Shown here: positions 3,631 to 52,700 of the stretch, piece by piece
Layout of the letters: each line of letters opens with the position of its first letter
Numbering within the stretch: position 1 is the stretch's first letter
From: Cinnamomum chago
Taxonomy: Eukaryota; Streptophyta; Magnoliopsida; Laurales; Lauraceae
Assembly: GCA_038049695.1 (NCBI GenBank)
Contig: CP142453.1
Coordinates: 36,307,501 to 36,371,500, forward strand
Direction of reading: 5' to 3'
Length of the DNA stretch: 64,000 nucleotides
The notes under the pieces: model-generated
What the model was told of the DNA's origin: nothing
Databases searched by the model: none
The model's input: only the letters and a program-made list of their open reading frames with translations
Position numbers and translations under genes: made by a program

Positions 3631-4629
3631 AATATAATAATGATGATAACAGGCTGAAATGTGATTATACCAACAGCATGTGAGAAACCACTACCCATCC
3701 TACGTAATGATCTGACAAATGAATAGCCCGAATCATCAAATCACTAGACATAACCCATAAGTTGCAATAACCAAAGGCAATTAACAAGCAGAAAGCACAA
3801 TCGCAAAATCTGATGATCATGTTACGAGACAATGAGATATTGAGGTATCAGTCATATAACAGTTTAAATTACCAAAAGCAGGATATGTCTATGGTTCTAT
3901 CAGAAAGTCTTTCCTTAGAAACCTCTTCCCCTAGATTACTTCTTAGTTCTTATATAATTACCATCATAAAGCCATCTGACTTGGGGTTTTTATATGAAGT
4001 AGGTTTAAACCAATATTCATGGATGGGACTTCTAGGATTCTGACCTGTGAAATTTCACTTCTAGTCTCCAATCAACATGAAGTCCAATTCATACTCTCCA
4101 ACGAAAAAGCAGGCTGTAAAATGTGTTTGAAGTTGGGATTCCCGTGTAGTAAACCCCATCATGTTTAAGGAGAGATTAAAACAAATGAACGTGCAATTTT
4201 GAAGGTTGTTTTGTCAGTAATCTAGGTTCAATGAGAAAAGGTCAACTTTGAAGGCCAACACATTGCCCATGCATCCCTAGGAAACAGTAAGGTTCAACAA
4301 ACTGAAGGTCCAGCCAGATCCACCAACAGATGGCTGTGTGCATGGTTGCATCATAAATGCCAAAACTTGTGTATAAACCCAGCATCCAAGTTGGACGAGG
4401 AAATTTAGTCCAGCTAACTCTTCCAGATTTCTTAAATCATTGCAGTGCAAGCAAACGTTTAGCAAAGCAGCAAATAGTATATGCAACTCTCACACTAAAA
4501 TGCATAACAAAATTTCAGACATCTATGTCAGCCAGTTGGGATCCACTGAACCATGATTCCCTAGACAGCAAGCACTACATAATAAAATCTGAATCCAAGT
4601 ACAGAACAAAAAACCTAGAGCAGATTGAT
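3631..4629. other. 3' flank of RPS8, no further gene recognised
   Basis: No coding exon with family resemblance on either strand. The part next to 4629 should hold the RPS8 3' UTR (minus strand); no clear AATAAA signal was seen. Confidence 0.5.
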
Positions 4630-14834
<10,205 letters not shown>

Positions 14835-18455: not shown

Positions 18456-18829
18456 AGTCCCGACTCTGGGCTTATAAGTCAAACCTCGTGTTAAGTCAAC
18501 ATGGCGCGATTTAAAGCCGTAAGACCCTGCATCCCATAAGAACTCTGGAGTCAAGCCTGCTCCAGCGGGAGTAGTACTAAGATGTGTGATCGCCTGGGAA
18601 GTCTGCACGCGTGCATGTGGGGCTAAAGTGGACAATATTAGACAATTGGTATCAGAGTCAAGGACAACTCTATTTTATGTTCATCGACTCTATTTTCGGT
18701 TGGGGAGGGGGGGTCAGTGCCAGAATGGGTGATTCCCTGGGAAGTCCTCACGCCTGCATGTGGGGCCAAAGCCAATAATATCATGCTGAGTTGGGGCGAG
18801 CCTGAGACAAGATGGGCGATGGATATGGA

Positions 18830-30944: not shown

Positions 30945-30949
30945 ATATT

Positions 30950-31489
30950 TGATGATGCCAAAAAGTGGCTTTCGGACACCACCGGTCGAGTGATATGCAA
31001 TTAATGTAGAAATTAATAAAGAGAGAGAAAGTTTATAGTGGTTCGGTCAGTATGACCTACGTCCACTTTAAATGATCACTTTACTGCTCTGAGGAGGAGA
31101 TTACAAAGTAGTCAGATACAATAATGATGTGAAGAATTCTAGAGATCCCCTTTCCTTTGTTAGGACTCCTCCTTCTATACTCTTTCTCCAACGGATGGGG
31201 AGATTCTCCAGGGATCTCCAATGATGTACGCTCCAGTCTGGTGGAGTCTTCCGAACTCTCCTCAACAGATGAGCAGATAAAATTTCCTCTGCGGGAATTG
31301 GTAAAAGCAGGTAGGTGAAACGACACGAGGACTTCTTCCTTCAGTGGATTTGGATCCGGCCACAATGGGTAGATCAAGACCTGAGCTTATCATGGACTAA
31401 GGTCAGTTTGACCCGACCCGTCGTCGTGGACCGAGCCACCTGGGCCTAACCTGTCATTGCGGACCGAACTATTTGGGCCTGGCCCATCA
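30950..31489 (-). repeat. 3' LTR of the gag-only element
   Basis: 540 bp, plus-strand edges TGATGATGCC and GGCCCATCA. Same length as the copy at 35237-35776. Differences seen by eye: AATAAAG/AATGAAG near 31018 and GAGGAGG/GATGAGG near 31092. Confidence 0.95.
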
Positions 31490-31501
31490 TTTGCCCCTCA
31501 A
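31490..31501 (-). promoter_or_regulatory. Polypurine tract
   Basis: Minus strand TTGAGGGGCAAA directly abuts the 3' LTR, the expected place of plus-strand priming in an LTR element. Confidence 0.6.
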
Positions 31502-31619
31502 TGTCTCGCGCCAAAGAATGCTTTGAAAGGGAGACATTATTAACATCAGGCTTTTTCATGCCAAGCAATTAGTAGCTTTTCTGGACACTGAACCCCCTTT
31601 TAGTATATGCCCTCCGCAG

Positions 31620-31985
31620 AGGGGTCCGAGGGTGCCCCCCGGCGGTGGTCGAGCTGGCGACGGAGGTGCTGGACGGGGCAGGGGCGCCAGCCAGGGCACG
31701 GGCGCGGAAAGCACTGGGCGCGGGCGCTGGTGCTGGCGTGGAGCGCGAAGGAGCTGGGCGCCTAGCCTGTGCGAGGAGCATGGAGGAGATGGGCGCCCAG
31801 GGTGCTGCTGGCACTGGTGCCGGGCGCCCAGCCTGGGCGAGGCTGTGCTGGGCGCGGGCGCGGGCGAGCGGGCGCTGGTGGGCCAGCGCGGGCGAGGGGG
31901 CGCGAGGGCGCAGGCACGCGGGCGCGAGGAGACCTGCTGTTTGGCGAGCTGCTGTTGAGCGTTGGGAGAGCGGGCGCCGAGATTA
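31620..31985. repeat. GC-rich island of GGGCGCCC-type motifs, no. 1
   Basis: Strongly GC-rich within AT-rich surroundings. Built from GGGCGC/GCGCCC pieces, with full GGGCGCCCAG palindromes near 31789 and 31821. Long overlapping open frames on both strands are by-products of base composition. Confidence 0.75.
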
Positions 31986-32330
31986 GAGTATTTTTAGCTT
32001 CATGCTTCTACTCATTATAATATGTTTCATGTCAATAGTAGATGCTGGAAAGTCAACAATTGAGGGACAGATACTCTTCCTCAACGGTCACGTTGATGAT
32101 AAAGCAATTCAAAAAATATGAAATGAAGCCAAGGAGAAAAGTCAGAGAGTTGGTGAGTTTTTTTTTTTTTTTTTTAGTCAATGTGCCACTGTTGGACTTT
32201 TGGCAAGAAAAGTGACTGTTCAAAACTTGGATGGAACTTGGCTTTTGACAGGGTAAAAAGTCTTGGTTAAGTTTATTTCAACCACTACATGTGCAGGGGC
32301 GCCATGTGGTAAAAAATTTTCCTTTTTTTT
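31986..32330 (+). pseudogene. Captured fragment of the eRF3/GSPT1 release-factor GTPase gene
   Basis: Plus-strand exon 32039-32152 reads VDAGKSTIEGQILFLNGHVD then DKAIQKI, a stop, and NEAKEKSQR. It resembles the start of the translation release factor eRF3 GTPase domain, in which HVDAGKSTTGGQILFLSGQV is the P-loop region. The exon is preceded by an acceptor-like TTTCATGTCAATAG and followed by the donor-like GTGAGT. The copy therefore derives from genomic DNA with introns, not from spliced mRNA. It has one nonsense codon and lies antisense to the element's gag. Identification is by motif; other eEF1A-like GTPases are less good fits because of the QILFLxGxVDD string. Confidence 0.75.
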
Positions 32331-32339
32331 TTTTTTCTT

Positions 32340-32441
32340 GTTGATGGGGGCAGGGGCGCCCAAGTGCACTTGAAAGGTGATGGGCGCCCAGCACTTGGAA
32401 GGATGGGCGCCCAGCACTTGGAAGGGGCGCCCATGTGCCTT

Positions 32442-32477
<36 letters not shown>

Positions 32478-32510
32478 GGCAGGCGATGGACGAGGAGCCT
32501 CGGGCGCCCC
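32340..32510. repeat. GGGCGCCC island no. 2 with a 34-35 base T tract
   Basis: GGGCGCCC palindromes occur near 32353, 32383, 32406, 32425 and 32503, two of them within GGGCGCCCAGCACTTGGAAG repeats. A T run spans 32443-32476 (A on the element's sense strand). Confidence 0.8.
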
Positions 32511-32875
32511 CCAATCCCAGTTGTACTGAGCCATTCATCTAGATCATCTGGTGTGACTTCACGCCTATCCTCTGGATTAAGTGCGTTGTCTCACCCATTC
32601 AAACTTAGTCTATGTAGAGCACAAGGTGACAAATCTCCGTGACTATTCTTCAAATATCTTTCTCATTGAACCTATGGCAAGTTTAGCAGCCGTTGAAGAA
32701 TTCCTTTGGCCAAGAGTTCAACGTGGAGAGTCTGCACAGAAGCTTCTGCTGGAAATTCTGAGCATGGGACAGCACCTGCTGCTGGTGTGCCATCACCATC
32801 TACATCAGCTCCTACATCCTCTGGTCGGCGCTATTCAACTAGATCTAGGTCATCAGTAGCCATAGGCGATGCTGC
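32511..32875 (+). pseudogene. Captured fragment of the HECT E3 ligase gene UPL3
   Basis: Three consecutive frames read VVLSHSSRSSG...SRLSSGLSALSHPFKLSLCR and AQGDKS; then RDYSSNIFLIEP with SLAAVEEFLWPRVQR; then SAGNSEHGTAPAAGV with RRYSTRSRSSVAIGD. This is the order and wording of a conserved middle region of plant UPL3 (ubiquitin-protein ligase 3), as I recall the family. Two small indels (near 32638 and 32745) break the frame. The match starts immediately after a GGGCGCCCC motif and stops where the next GC-rich island begins. It lies antisense to gag. Confidence 0.8.
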
Positions 32876-33215
32876 AGGCGGCTGCGCCCCAGGCGCTGCT
32901 GGTCGTGCTGCGCATGACGGACGACGGGGCGCCCTAAGCGCTGCTGGGTGTATTCCTGATCGCGGCGGGCTGCGCTGCCGGCTTGGGGGACGGGGCGCCC
33001 CTGCTGCAGGTGCTGCGGATGGGCGAGGAGCGCTGGGCGCGCGCGGTGGAGGACGGGCTCGGTGCAGGCCATGGGCGCGGGCAGCAGCACTCATCAGGTG
33101 TTGGGCGAGGAGTTCTGTCGCGGGTGCGGGGCGCCCAGCCTGCTGCTGGGCGCTGCTGTGCGGTGCGCCCAGCCTGTTGGTGATGCTGGTGGGCGCTCAG
33201 CCATGGGCGAACAGT
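32876..33215. repeat. GGGCGCCC-type GC-rich island no. 3
   Basis: GGGCGCCC occurs near 32928, 32993 and 33128, with further GGGCG and GCGCCC half-sites throughout. Overlapping ORFs on both strands here are Ala/Arg/Gly-rich composition artefacts. Confidence 0.75.
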
Positions 33216-33483
33216 TACTCCTTGTTTTTTTTTTTTTTTGAAAAACTTCTGGAGGCCAAAACAGCTGTTTCTGAACCTATTTTGGACTTTTGACACCATC
33301 AATCACCGCCATAGGCGGTGAGTTCTGGGGCTCGTCGAGAGCTTAGATTTAATTTGTACACCCCGTTTTGGAGCACCTTGGGCGAGCCTGGGCTGCTTGG
33401 GGGAGCCGGGGCTGCCTTGTGAGCTTTGGGCGCTATGGGGCTGCCTTGTGAGCTTTGGGCGAGCTAAGTGGGTCAGGCCCCGC

Positions 33484-33858
33484 TGGAGATAGGCTGCCTG
33501 TTTGAGAACAGTGCAGAGGTAGGTCAAGCTTTTTGACGACCCGCGAGAGAGCCGCTAAGCTGAAGATAGGCCGCCTGTTTGAGAACAGTGCAGAGGTAGG
33601 CCAAGCTTTTTTGGCGACCCGCGAGAGAGCCGCTAAGCTGGAGATAGGCCGCCTGTTTGAGAACAGTGCAGAGGTAGGCCAAGCTTTTTTGGCGACCCGC
33701 GAGAGAGCCGCTAAGCTGGAGATAGGCTGCCTGTTTGAAAACAGTGCAGAGGTAGACCAAGCTTTTTTGACGACCCGCGAGAGAGCCGCTAAGCTGGAGG
33801 TAGGCTGCCTGTTTAAAAACAGTGCAGAGGCAGGTCACGCTTTTTTGGGCGACCCACG
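33484..33858. repeat. 78-bp tandem repeat downstream of gag
   Basis: GACCCGCGAGAG-type starts occur at 33538, 33616, 33694 and 33772, with a variant at 33851 (period 78, last 79), about 4.7 copies. Since 78 is a multiple of 3, the array stays open in several frames. On the gag strand and frame it would encode a 26-residue repeat (for example KKAWPTSALFSNRRPI). Confidence 0.9.
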
Positions 33859-35184
33859 AGATGATTCACCTCGCCTAGACCTGTTGATTTCCTCAGCGTT
33901 CATATATTTTTGAGCTTTTGCCAATAGTTCTGGCATGCTCTTTGGTGGTCGCTTCATTATTGAAAAAAAGAAACTGGATGAACGGAGGCCTCCTAGAAAG
34001 GCGGTCATGGTGACTTTGTCATTGGGCTCTTCGATTTGGAGGACCTCCTCGTTAAAACGAGTGAGGTAACTCCTCAGACTCTCATCTGGATCCTGCTTTA
34101 TGCTGAGTAGGTGTGCGGCAGGCTTCTGGTGGCGGCGCCTACCGATAAAGTGTGAGACGAAAGATCTGCTCAACTCTCCAAAGGTGGCTATGGATGCTTG
34201 GGGGAGATTCGCAAACCACTGCCGAGCGGAACCCTTCAATGTAGTTGGGAATGCCCTGCACATTATCTCGTCAGGGATATTATGCAGCTGCATTCTTGTT
34301 TTGTACGTCTCCAGATGGTCCAGTGGATCCTTCGTTCCATCGAAGGTCTCCACGGATGGCATCTTGAACTTCCGAGGGAGTGGGTAGTTCACCACATCAG
34401 GTTTGAACGGTGAATCCGTTCGCCCAACCAGATAATCTACCGTCTCCGGTGCCTTCACCTTTATGGCGTTGAAGGCATTGCCAATCTGATTTTGCATCTC
34501 TTTGATCTTCTCGTCCCAAAGGTTGGGGGCTTCTCTGGATTGACCTTGGAACTGGCTCTCGTCTTCCAGGCTGTAATTTCCACTTCCCATCTCCTGGAAA
34601 TCAGGATCCTCGTGATTGGAAGCAAAGGGAGGAGGTGAAAGCCCACCGCGATTCGACCCGCCCGGGGGAGGGGGTACATCGAGATGAGCGCGGCCTTCAG
34701 GATCAACCAGGAGCCTTCCGTGCGGGACGACCGGCGGAGCTCCAGCAGACGTCCCCTGGGCGTGGGCGCCATGATGACGGGCGCCCTGGGCGCCATGAGG
34801 ATGGGCGCCCAGGGCTTGGGCGCCCAGTTGCAGTCCTCTACCCTGGGCGCCCAGGGGTTGGGCGCCCAGGTGAAGGCGGCCTCGATTGGCGCCTCGTCCC
34901 CGGGCGTGCTGACGGGCGCCCGGGTGAGGTGCCCCTCTGCGTCGAGCAACCAGTTGCTTCGAGAGTGGTGCTTCCTGCGGTCCTGCACCTAGTGCTCCTC
35001 CTTGACTCGCCAGCATGAGCTGCAGTATTTGTTGGTTTTGAGTTACCAACTGTTGCATGGTCTCCAGCATCTGCTGGGGAGAGGGAGCGGGAGCATTCGG
35101 TACAGGGTTGGTCGGTGGAGGATTACCCTCGCCCTCGCGCGAGGGGTTACCATCTTGTCGCCTTGTTGATTTGGTGATCGGCAT
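33835..35184 (-). CDS. Gag protein of the Ty3/gypsy-type element
   Basis: 449 codons, intact. The N-terminal 90 residues are Pro/Gln-rich and the next 80 are dominated by Gly-Ala-Gln/His repeats (LGAQPLGAQGRGLQLGAQ) encoded by GGGCGCCC palindromes. An acidic linker follows. The retrotransposon gag core lies at about residues 255-400: FKMPSVETFDGTKDPLDHLE, RAFPTTLKGSARQWFANLP and FGELSRSFVSHFIG are the diagnostic motifs. There is no CCHC zinc knuckle. The stop (33837-33835) coincides with the start of the 78-bp array, where sister units have TGG in place of this TGA. Gag would form the particle that packages the element's RNA; pol must come from elsewhere. Confidence 0.92.
   Translation of the reverse strand: MPITKSTRRQDGNPSREGEGNPPPTNPVPNAPAPSPQQMLETMQQLVTQNQQILQLMLASQGGALGAGPQEAPLSKQLVARRRGAPHPGARQHARGRGANRGRLHLGAQPLGAQGRGLQLGAQALGAHPHGAQGARHHGAHAQGTSAGAPPVVPHGRLLVDPEGRAHLDVPPPPGGSNRGGLSPPPFASNHEDPDFQEMGSGNYSLEDESQFQGQSREAPNLWDEKIKEMQNQIGNAFNAIKVKAPETVDYLVGRTDSPFKPDVVNYPLPRKFKMPSVETFDGTKDPLDHLETYKTRMQLHNIPDEIMCRAFPTTLKGSARQWFANLPQASIATFGELSRSFVSHFIGRRRHQKPAAHLLSIKQDPDESLRSYLTRFNEEVLQIEEPNDKVTMTAFLGGLRSSSFFFSIMKRPPKSMPELLAKAQKYMNAEEINRSRRGESSRGSPKKA
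34735..34965. repeat. GGGCGCCC palindrome cluster inside gag
   Basis: At least six GGGCGCCC sites (near 34778, 34803, 34819, 34845, 34859, 34914) fall within the reading frame and encode the GAQ/GAH repeat of Gag. It uses the same word as the three non-coding islands 31620-33215. Confidence 0.85.
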
Positions 35185-35215
35185 GGCTTTGTTGAAAAAA
35201 GGAAATTCTTTTCGT

Positions 35216-35233
35216 TTCCCACAGACGGCGCCA
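35216..35233 (-). promoter_or_regulatory. Primer-binding site
   Basis: Minus strand TGGCGCCGTCTGTGGGAA begins three bases inside the 5' LTR edge. The first eight bases fit the TGGCGCCG class used by several plant gypsy elements; the matching tRNA was not determined. Confidence 0.65.
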
Positions 35234-35236
35234 AAC

Positions 35237-35776
35237 TGATGATGCCAAAAAGTGGCTTTCGGACACCACCGGTCGAGTGATATGCAATTAATGTAGAAAT
35301 TAATGAAGAGAGAGAAAGTTTATAGTGGTTCGGTCAGTATGACCTACGTCCACTTTAAATGATCACTTTACTGCTCTGATGAGGAGATTACAAAGTAGTC
35401 AGATACAATAATGATGTGAAGAATTCTAGAGATCCCCTTTCCTTTGTTAGGACTCCTCCTTCTATACTCTTTCTCCAACGGATGGGGAGATTCTCCAGGG
35501 ATCTCCAATGATGTACGCTCCAGTCTGGTGGAGTCTTCCGAACTCTCCTCAACAGATGAGCAGATAAAATTTCCTCTGCGGGAATTGGTAAAAGCAGGTA
35601 GGTGAAACGACACGAGGACTTCTTCCTTCAGTGGATTTGGATCCGGCCACAATGGGTAGATCAAGACCTGAGCTTATCATGGACTAAGGTCAGTTTGACC
35701 CGACCCGTCGTCGTGGACCGAGCCACCTGGGCCTAACCTGTCATTGCGGACCGAACTATTTGGGCCTGGCCCATCA
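35237..35776 (-). repeat. 5' LTR of the gag-only element
   Basis: 540 bp, bounded by TG...CA on the plus strand and followed by the ATATT duplication. Near-identical to 30950-31489. Confidence 0.95.
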
Positions 35777-35959
35777 ATATTGATCTTATTCATTATGCAA
35801 AGGAGGAAGATTGTAATAAAATGAGAACTTGATTCAATCCATATGGGAAAATAATATTGTGGATTAGCTTAAAACCATTCCTCTCGGTGAGATGATGTGT
35901 ACTGTTGGATATTTCGTAACAAGCGACTTTCAAAGTCTTAAAGAGACACTTGAGTGTGC

Positions 35960-49719: not shown

Positions 49720-52700
49720 ATGGACGAGCGAAAGGACAAGCAGATGATGGCTCCCGATCAGTCTAGCAGTGTCGAGGTAAGCATAATCATCGCGCTTTGT
49801 GTATGATTAGAGACGAACTACTCAGCCCTGCATGTCCGACCGAATGTCCTTTGGTCGGCCCTACATGTCTGACCGAATGTTCTTCGGTCGGCATGTGAGT
49901 GCCGAAAATTTTAAATTTGAACAGCACTACAGTGTCGAGAATAACAAAAATTTGCGGACATGATTAATCGAAAATTAGGATAATGTGCGGACATTCAGGA
50001 CCGAAAATAAGGACAATATGCGGTGATTTAGGTCTGAACAATTCTGTCTGGATATTCAGAGCCGTGCAGTTGTATCATTTACATACTCTAACCAAAATTG
50101 GTTCTATAGCAGTTTCATGCGCCTATTGAATGCAGCAAGGTTTGCTCGGAATGTATGGTTGACTATAGTAATGAGTTTATCACTCATGAGGTAATTATCT
50201 AGATGAATCATTCGATATTTAAATTGATGAAGTCAGTTGGTTTAATAATATTTTCTTTGGTTATGTGCAGATATTCACAAGCCGAGAAGCCCTAATTAAT
50301 TAGGCTCGTGAGGTTGGGAGGATAAATTGTTTCATTGTTGTGATTAAGACATCAACAGCGCCCAACAGGAGAAATAAAAAACCAAAGCTGACCCTTGGGT
50401 GTGAGAGGAGTGGGTCTTATAGAGACACGAGGATAACTAAAGATGTGACCGTTGGGAAGAAATTGAAGCAGACTTATGCGAAAAAATGTGGATGCCCATT
50501 CACGTTACAAGGCAAAGTGGTTGGCTCATACGAGGAATGGATGTTGCATGTAGTGTGTGGTGTGCATAATCATCCAGCTGCAGACTTTCTAGAAGGGCAC
50601 TCATTTGCAGGGAAATTAACAAAGAATGAAACTTCATTGCTGGTAGACATGTCCAATAATATGTTTCGGCCAAAGGATATCTTGGTGACATTGAAACATA
50701 AAAATGAGTTAAATGTAAGCACACTGAAGACTATTTACAATGCACATCAAAGGCATAAAGTTGCGGAGAGGGCTGGACGAGTCAGATGTAACAACTGTTG
50801 AAATTATTGGCGAAGCATAACTACATTGAGTGGCATGGGAATTGTTCTACAACAGATACTGTCATTGACTTGTTCTTTACACACCCTACCAGCCTAGGCC
50901 TCTTGCGTGCATTTCATCATGTGTTGATGATGGACTGCACCTACAAGACCAATCGGTATCGAATGCCCTTATTGGAGATTATTGGGGTTATATCTCCAAA
51001 ATGAACGTGAAAACTGCTACTAATGGGCATTGGGTATTTTGCTCAAAGTTATTGGTGAGGGTGTTCTTCCTAGTGTTATCGTCACCATCAGAGAGATGGC
51101 TTTAATGAATGTCATATCTATTGTTTTCCCTGGCGCCAAACTTCTTTTATGTAGATGGCATATCAACAGAAATATCTTGGCTAAATGCAAGAATATGTTT
51201 GAGACGAAGGAAAAGTGAGACCACTTTATAATGAGCTGGAACATGTTGGTCTCCTCATCCACAGAGGAACATTACAATCTGCAATTCAACTTATTTATAA
51301 AAGAGTTCATCACTTATCCAGTAGCACTTCAGTATGTTAGAGCATCTTGATCAGATGCGTACAAGGACAGATTTGTGGCTGCCTGGACGGACAAGGTCAT
51401 GCATTTTTGTAACACTACTACAAACAGGGTGGAGAGTTCACATGCACAGCTGAAGCAGCAGCTTGGATCAAGCCAGGGGACTTTTGAAGATTCTTGGATG
51501 AAGATTCACAACCTATTGTTGCTGCAACATACAGATATAAAAGCATCATTTGAAAAAAGTAAGACGGTTGTGCAACACAATTTTAAATCTTCCGAATTCA
51601 AAGAACTTCGTGGGAATATTTCTATAAGTGCATAAGAGAAAATCTTGGCCGAGACGAAACGAGTCTCGTCAGTTGGTTGTTGATAGAGATACTTGTGGCT
51701 GTGTACTTCGACACACACATGGTCTACCTTGTGCTCATGAGACTGCAGAATATATAAGTGCTGGGCTCCCTATTCCTCTAGATTGCACACATATGCATTG
51801 GCACAAGCTTGACTTGCTATCTACTGCTTCTGCCCAGGACTCCAGTGTCAATTTGGATTGCATGCCAGAGATAGATTTAATCGTCGAACAGTTCAGGAGC
51901 TATGATTCAAGAAAGAAGTTACAGATCTTGGATAAGCTTAAGGAGTTAGCAAAGCCTGATACGACCTCATTGATCGAGCCAGATTCGAAAACTAAATGTA
52001 TGGTGCGCCCCAAATTGAAATTACATAATTCTACTAAACGTAAACCCTCTTCCTTTGAATATGTTGAATCAGCTCAGGATAGTTACTCTCCTGTCTTGAA
52101 GACGGAAAAGACTATTGTCAGTCGTGGGGCTCCTTGGTTCCCGTGAAGAGGCTTATGCCTAAGCAAAAGGTGAGTCGCATCAAAAATTTGGAGCCAGTTT
52201 CTTATATTAACACACTTCCAGCTGGTTTAACGCCTTATATTCATCATATAAAAGATGTCAATGCGGATGGCAATTGTGGATTTAGAGTCATTGCAGGGTT
52301 GATGGGACTTGGTGAGGATTCGTGGTAACAGGTACGGAAAGATCTTTCTAAAGAGTTGGTGACTCATGCAGAACACTACAGACAATTATATGGATCACAC
52401 CAAAGGATTGATGAACTTCTCCACATCATATAGTACCAAGGGGATTGTCCTCCATATGATCGGTGGATGACGATGCCGGACATGGAACATCTAATTGCAT
52501 CGCACTATAACGTTGTCCTATACCACCTGTCAATTGAGCTATGTCTGGCTTTTCTTCCTCTTCAATCGGTGCCTATTCCTACTGCTGCTAGACGGGAGAT
52601 CGCAATCGGTTTTATAAATCAGAACCACTTTGTTCAGGTGATAATAGTAGATTCACCTATCTTATTTTGCCTAAAATGCCGTGACTCACTTGAACTCCTT

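Follow-up and report, generated by a model that had tools for sequence, protein, structure and literature searches.

The 64-kb window analysed here corresponds to C3:36307501-36371500 of the Cinnamomum chago assembly (1.06 Gb in 14 contigs). Positions 30950 to 35776 of the window (C3:36338450-36343276) are occupied by a long terminal repeat (LTR) element, read on the minus strand, whose sole open reading frame (ORF) with a family match is a gag gene. Two host-gene pieces are embedded in the spacer that separates gag from the 3' LTR, one from a gene of the translation factor eRF3 (GSPT1-type) and one from a ubiquitin ligase gene of the UPL3/TRIP12 type. A first-pass annotation, made from the letters of the window, had proposed a recently moved, gag-only gypsy element with such cargo, and the analysis described below followed up that proposal.

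Both LTRs of the window element are on the minus strand and 540 bp long (3' LTR, 30950-31489; 5' LTR, 35237-35776). They are identical at 538 of 540 sites, their outer ends read TGAT...ATCA, and they are bordered by the two copies of a perfect ATATT target-site duplication (left copy, 30945-30949; right copy, 35777-35781), the LTR length and the duplication agreeing with the first-pass annotation. The primer-binding site, TGGCGCCGTCTGTGGG (35218-35233, minus strand), lies beside the right (5') LTR, and its core was present in 17 of the 18 copies of the element that were examined. The polypurine tract, TTGAGGGGCAAA (31490-31501, minus strand), adjoins the left (3') LTR. Between them lie, in the direction of reading, the gag ORF (33835-35184, minus strand), a 78-bp tandem repeat of about five copies (33482-33861, minus strand), the first unit of which contains the gag stop codon, and the GGCGCC-rich spacer (31640-33480), which hosts both gene pieces. 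The element accounts for 25 of the 27 GGCGCC sites of the 64-kb window; the spacer has 14 of these, the gag ORF has 10, and one is located at the primer-binding site. With two LTRs, target-site duplication, primer-binding site, polypurine tract and a single ORF with a gag domain and no pol, the window element is a young, recently inserted TR-GAG, and the proposal of a gag-only gypsy element that moved recently holds good.

The gag ORF codes for 449 amino acids and matches PF03732 with E=1e-16 over profile positions 2-96 of 97. Among the best 120 of 239 matches in a protein search, the named relatives were from plants, e.g. Rhododendron, Cornus, Actinidia and oaks, and many others were unnamed metagenome proteins. 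A search of viral contigs with gag gave nine pattern matches and no relative. The two relatives that were inspected (P0001 and P0005) run on C-terminally into a stretch that we take to be zinc-knuckle-like, whereas the window gag stops earlier; its capsid-type domain is complete and its C end is short against these two. The gag had been called intact, and it is indeed open and has its PF03732 match, but it is not full length. The longest ORF ends as in the window gag, with small letter changes, in 12 of the 18 copies and is broken or ends elsewhere in the other six, thus the C-terminal shortening looks like a trait of the family.

The two captured gene pieces

The eRF3 piece (31980-32234, plus strand, antisense to gag) is composed of the tail of one intron, an exon and the head of the next intron. 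Its exon (DAGKST...ESW; 32042-32152, plus strand) has an acceptor (TAG) and a donor (GTGAGT). The junctions had been recognized in the first-pass annotation, but the exon start had been placed at 32039; in the host gene the acceptor reads TAG/ATGCTGG and the apparent Val codon belongs to the intron. When the 36-residue reading was compared with solved structures, eRF3 was matched with E about 1e-6, HBS1-type proteins with 0.004 and 0.06, and eEF1A with 0.04. The short piece stayed below the cut-off of the Pfam family GTP_EFTU (14.4 vs. 26.5 bits), and a protein search for single-exon eRF3 ORFs gave no candidate.

At the DNA level, window positions 31980-32234 align with 87% identity to a host gene on C4 (L040), and also to 10 other element-borne copies. 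In L040 an upstream exon (...HLNVVFIGHV, ending GTCG/GTAAGT) is followed by the 112-bp exon DAGKST...KSRESW and, 3.6 kb beyond the latter, by the exon YMAYIMDTNEEERVK. A second gene, L041, has the upstream exon end and the exon in common with L040, but its 10 kb gave no YMAY exon. Relative to the gene, the exon in the window has one stop codon and a 1-bp deletion. L040 continues as gene sequence of its own past both breakpoints, and the window element has no match to it outside the captured piece.

A genome search with the eRF3 piece gave at least 45 matches (40 scored of 52 candidates). At least 13 of them span window positions 31986-32234, 11 in elements and two in the genes L040 and L041; at least 32 others contain part of the piece, and the seven of these that were examined all lie in related elements. 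In all fetched copies with a gag, the piece runs antisense to it. The length of the piece is about 323 bp in L048 (C6:76.08 Mb) and L050 (C2:92.43 Mb) and less in L049; the remainder end near GGATGG. On the left side, element matrix directly precedes the host sequence (A)GAATAG in nine of the 11 copies, with the join placed within about two bases, and in the other two (L045 and L046) this breakpoint is deleted. None of the nine fetched loci, which contain 10 of the 11 copies, retains any of the 182 bp of host sequence that precede the captured piece or of the 295 bp that follow it. An intron-exon-intron piece of about 323 bp, antisense to gag, is therefore present in at least 11 element copies, trimmed and decayed to differing degrees, and the idea that it was taken up as unspliced DNA or unspliced RNA agrees with these data.

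The second piece (32515-32876, plus strand, likewise antisense to gag) had been annotated as UPL3-like. In a protein search it matched five proteins, none of which has a functional name, with a best E of 1.2e-28; the protein P0123 matches TRIP12. Against the PDB the short piece gave only low-complexity matches (designed Pizza proteins). A genome search, in which all four candidates were scored, located it in two elements (that of the window and a sister on C1, 99%) and in two genes (L055 on C5, 97%, and another on C4, 82%). In the C5 gene a single open frame of 510 codons spans the piece; the exon matches the ubiquitin ligase TRIP12 with E=2e-15, and the gene continues as sequence of its own past both breakpoints. 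By sequence the family link is to TRIP12, and the gene is presumably UPL3. The window piece differs from the C5 gene at 7 of 362 sites, two of which are terminal, where the position of the breakpoint is in doubt, and by two frameshifting deletions, both common to the window and C1 copies. It has no intron and comes from inside one host exon, hence the description of the cargo as intron-containing pieces of two host genes is right for eRF3 and wrong for UPL3. Chance similarity as an explanation of either piece was rejected, since each matches a gene of this genome in its DNA.

Relatives and order of events

A genome search with the LTR gave at least 41 matches; it must be noted that 40 of 1851 candidates were scored, and that the copy number is a lower bound. 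Six further LTR-paired copies (L009-L014) have 5-bp duplications and gag matches and show no pol match. At two other loci, L016/L017 and L018/L019, long stretches containing pol matches lie between LTRs that are about 90-92% like those of the window element (about 90-91% in L018/L019). In the domain scan of these two, which covered 10 of 31 listed frames, L018/L019 proved to have gag, reverse transcriptase (PF00078), two types of RNase H (PF17917 and PF13456), integrase (PF00665) and, in antisense, a Transposase_28 (TRP28) ORF (PF04195), which adjoins the 3' LTR on the opposite strand. L016/L017 (C8:8273222-8286073) matched PF13456, PF00665 and PF04195; only the two ends of its reverse transcriptase frame match, with the middle missing, thus this copy looks defective.

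The reverse transcriptase, RNase H and integrase frames of L018/L019 had no match in the window element at E 1e-4, whereas a control relative was positive. Similarly, none of the 18 short copies, the window's included, had a match to pol (reverse transcriptase, RNase H, integrase) or TRP28, again with a positive control, so the earlier statement that the element lacks pol stands. To judge from its domains, L018/L019 has the layout of the Retand lineage, and the window element appears to belong to a multi-copy, non-autonomous Ty3/gypsy family of the TR-GAG kind, related to this Retand-like, pol-bearing element of the same genome. The pol functions would be supplied in trans by elements of the L018/L019 type.

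It is interesting to compare the copies with each other. L009-L014 were picked for their LTR match and L042-L052 for their eRF3 match, and proportions among them are therefore uninformative. The C1 sister (L042) is 95-100% identical to the window element in 23 of 24 scored 200-bp bins. L009, which was chosen by its LTR, matches the window element in the LTR and much of gag, and its spacer is unrelated. L043, which was chosen by its cargo, matches in gag and in the eRF3 piece, and is 69-78% identical in most LTR bins. Similarity of the LTRs and similarity of the cargo thus disagree between copies in the few pairs compared, which points to exchange between LTR subfamilies. The eRF3 piece was probably captured first, as the LTRs of the copies that have it differ considerably from one another. 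The UPL3 piece, present in two elements, would represent a recent second capture, made later in the subfamily of the window element and its C1 sister. The claim of two separate captures, antisense to the element transcript, is in agreement with this distribution, with the addition that they appear to differ in age, eRF3 being old and in many copies, UPL3 recent and in two.

Three side observations concern these copies. The L042 locus (C1:84552000-84561900) contains two eRF3-bearing copies in inverted orientation, with a truncated element joined to another at a shortened LTR end. A spacer block of L050 (positions 4080-4250 of that locus) has an open reading stretch and might be a candidate for a third captured gene piece. 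Two AT-richer blocks in sister copies were also considered as further captures; in genome searches they were found in 37 places (37 of 37 scored) and in at least 40 places (40 of 405 candidates scored), respectively, so they behave like repeats, with no gene identified.

Routes of capture and consequences for the host genes

The reading that we prefer, with a probability of roughly 0.86, is that the window element is a Retand-related TR-GAG and that host sequence entered its GGCGCC-rich spacer, downstream of gag and before the 3' LTR, on two occasions. For eRF3, the left breakpoint common to nine of the 11 copies and lost in two points to one single old capture. Six sites distinguish L040 from L041; at five of these the L040 base is found in all 11 copies, and the sixth is mixed, thus the donor would be L040 or the ancestor of L040 and L041.

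How the host sequence entered is a separate question. Introns are not spliced out of antisense RNA and would thus be retained in a transcript that crosses the gene in reverse, as they would in DNA repair. Non-homologous template switching onto RNA antisense to the gene, originating for example from read-through of an element inserted into the gene in the opposite orientation, would explain the retained introns and the antisense orientation together, and we give it about an even chance as the route of the first entry. Somewhat less probable is that double-strand breaks in genomic copies of the element were patched with eRF3 and UPL3 filler DNA, and that the patched copies then transposed. Such repair would account for the introns without any unusual RNA, and antisense orientation in both of only two events is a 1 in 4 chance. 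The junctions of the captured pieces lie in, and directly abut, repetitive GC-rich matrix (the eRF3 right junction as kept in L048 and L050), which would also suit repair. However, break repair does not itself explain why both pieces are in the spacer and none in gag or in the LTRs, even though selection would remove insertions there.

Several observations weigh against the preferred reading or parts of it. Microhomology at the junctions is weak. Apart from the cargo, no match to the element, and so no read-through donor, was found in the approximately 10-kb eRF3 region of L040 or in the 3.4-kb UPL3 region of L055, where diverged LTRs may have escaped detection. At the sixth of the sites distinguishing the two eRF3 genes, three copies have the L040 base and eight the L041 base. 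Finally, the eRF3 piece of L048 differs from L040 at 3 of 256 sites although the LTRs of L048 differ from each other at 23 of 561, and L050 differs from the gene at 5 of 256, whereas the shorter piece of the window differs at 30 of 250. A single capture would require very unequal rates or later gene conversion between the gene and L048 and L050; a second capture that used this breakpoint again is the third possibility.

The exchange between subfamilies could be due to template switching among co-packaged RNAs, by which cargo would have moved from one LTR subfamily to another. The repeated, self-complementary GGCGCC motif could hold RNAs together during reverse transcription, an idea that derives in part from the dimer sites of retroviruses. 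A more far-reaching version, to which we give rather low credence, is that the family is a recombining collector: the GGCGCC spacer would pair co-packaged RNAs and promote strand transfer, unspliced antisense gene pieces would be acquired, traded and spread, and some copies would be mobile antisense RNAs against the live UPL3 gene.

Since both pieces are antisense to gag, a transcript made by the element itself runs antisense to the mRNAs of the host genes. The first-pass annotation had suggested the antisense transcript as a source of small RNAs against eRF3 or UPL3; the strand complementary to the mRNAs is instead the sense RNA of the element, which is predicted from the sequence to be a natural antisense to UPL3. 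Identity to the C5 gene extends to 216 of the 353 21-mers of the UPL3 piece, with a longest perfect run of 109 nt. Of the 241 21-mers of the eRF3 piece, 3 have an exact match in L040 and 6 in L041, every one of them intronic, and the exon of the piece has no 21-mer in common with either eRF3 gene. For these reasons UPL3 could be affected through small RNAs, and an effect of this kind on mature eRF3 mRNA is unlikely. We consider it improbable that the cargo is a working antisense regulator, with element RNA giving rise to small RNAs by which UPL3 is repressed, as eRF3 would have been in the past: the long identical runs and the complementarity to UPL3 mRNA would favour it, but the UPL3 piece occurs in two copies only, the eRF3 exon lacks any common 21-mer, and both pieces are frameshifted. 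Even less credible is a nested DNA transposon (Helitron or Pack-MULE) carrying both pieces. Transposons of this sort take up many gene fragments (excerpts of PMC13317346), and Pack-MULEs carry introns (excerpts of PMC4717578), but the two pieces have different copy distributions and histories (at least 11 elements vs. two), GGCGCC matrix lies between them, and no inverted repeat of at least 30 bases flanks the cargo (the search was not aimed at shorter repeats or at Helitron ends).

Elsewhere in the window there are LINE-like element pieces (9698-11543), in which the endonuclease match and that to reverse transcriptase fall in different frames, and a 5S ribosomal RNA-like sequence (18500-18618; 39.4 vs. 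the Rfam threshold of 38 bits), which may be a pseudogene or a 5S-derived repeat. FAR1-like ORF pieces lie at 50340-52146; the first has a weak match to PF03101, below the cut-off, and the second has no match.

Comparison with known elements

TR-GAG elements of plants were reportedly described by Chaparro and others in 2015. They have two LTRs, one gag ORF and no pol, and are thought to move by means of the proteins of an autonomous relative (excerpts of PMC9784723 and PMC8704663); one was shown to transpose in Arabidopsis ddm1 (excerpt of PMC8704663). The window element has the same composition. Unlike the TR-GAGs as described, its gag is C-terminally short and its spacer contains pieces of two host genes.

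The layout of the Retand lineage is described in the available part of PMC11963269. As in that layout, L018/L019 has gag, reverse transcriptase, two RNase H types, integrase and an antisense TRP28 ORF by the 3' LTR, and the window element has tandem repeats after gag. Unlike Retand elements, the window element has no match to pol or TRP28, and antisense host-gene pieces take the corresponding region.

Host sequence in LTR elements has precedents. Maize Bs1 carries pieces of three unrelated genes, and it is listed together with TRIM and Rider cases in PMC13317346 (in the part available); the window element resembles Bs1 and the gene-carrying TRIMs as an LTR element with host-gene pieces. However, soybean TRIM and Bs1 contain exons without introns (excerpts of PMC4717578), and transduced sequences are usually in the sense of gag-pol (excerpts of PMC7264820), whereas in the window element both pieces are antisense and one keeps both flanking introns. 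In rice and sorghum, host genes were found inside LTR elements, some with unique small RNAs (passages of PMC3726574), and the window element similarly holds sequence of host genes; the words intron, antisense and orientation are absent from the main text of that paper, thus this feature of the window element is not discussed there. In the open-licence literature, represented mostly by titles and the beginnings of abstracts (for TR-GAGs with captured fragments, by 15 of 4,604 entries), we found no TR-GAG with antisense, intron-bearing host pieces, which is not proof of absence.

The element is a defined natural antisense, as predicted above, to a ubiquitin ligase gene, and the graded series of copies offers a testbed for the capture mechanism of LTR elements. 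The plant LTR captures in the excerpts cited (soybean TRIM, Bs1) are described as exons only, and captured sequence as usually running in the sense of gag-pol; in contrast, the family described here presents a traceable, unspliced antisense capture, for which a single genome displays the donor gene, the breakpoint and the subsequent decay, and next to it a recent second capture.

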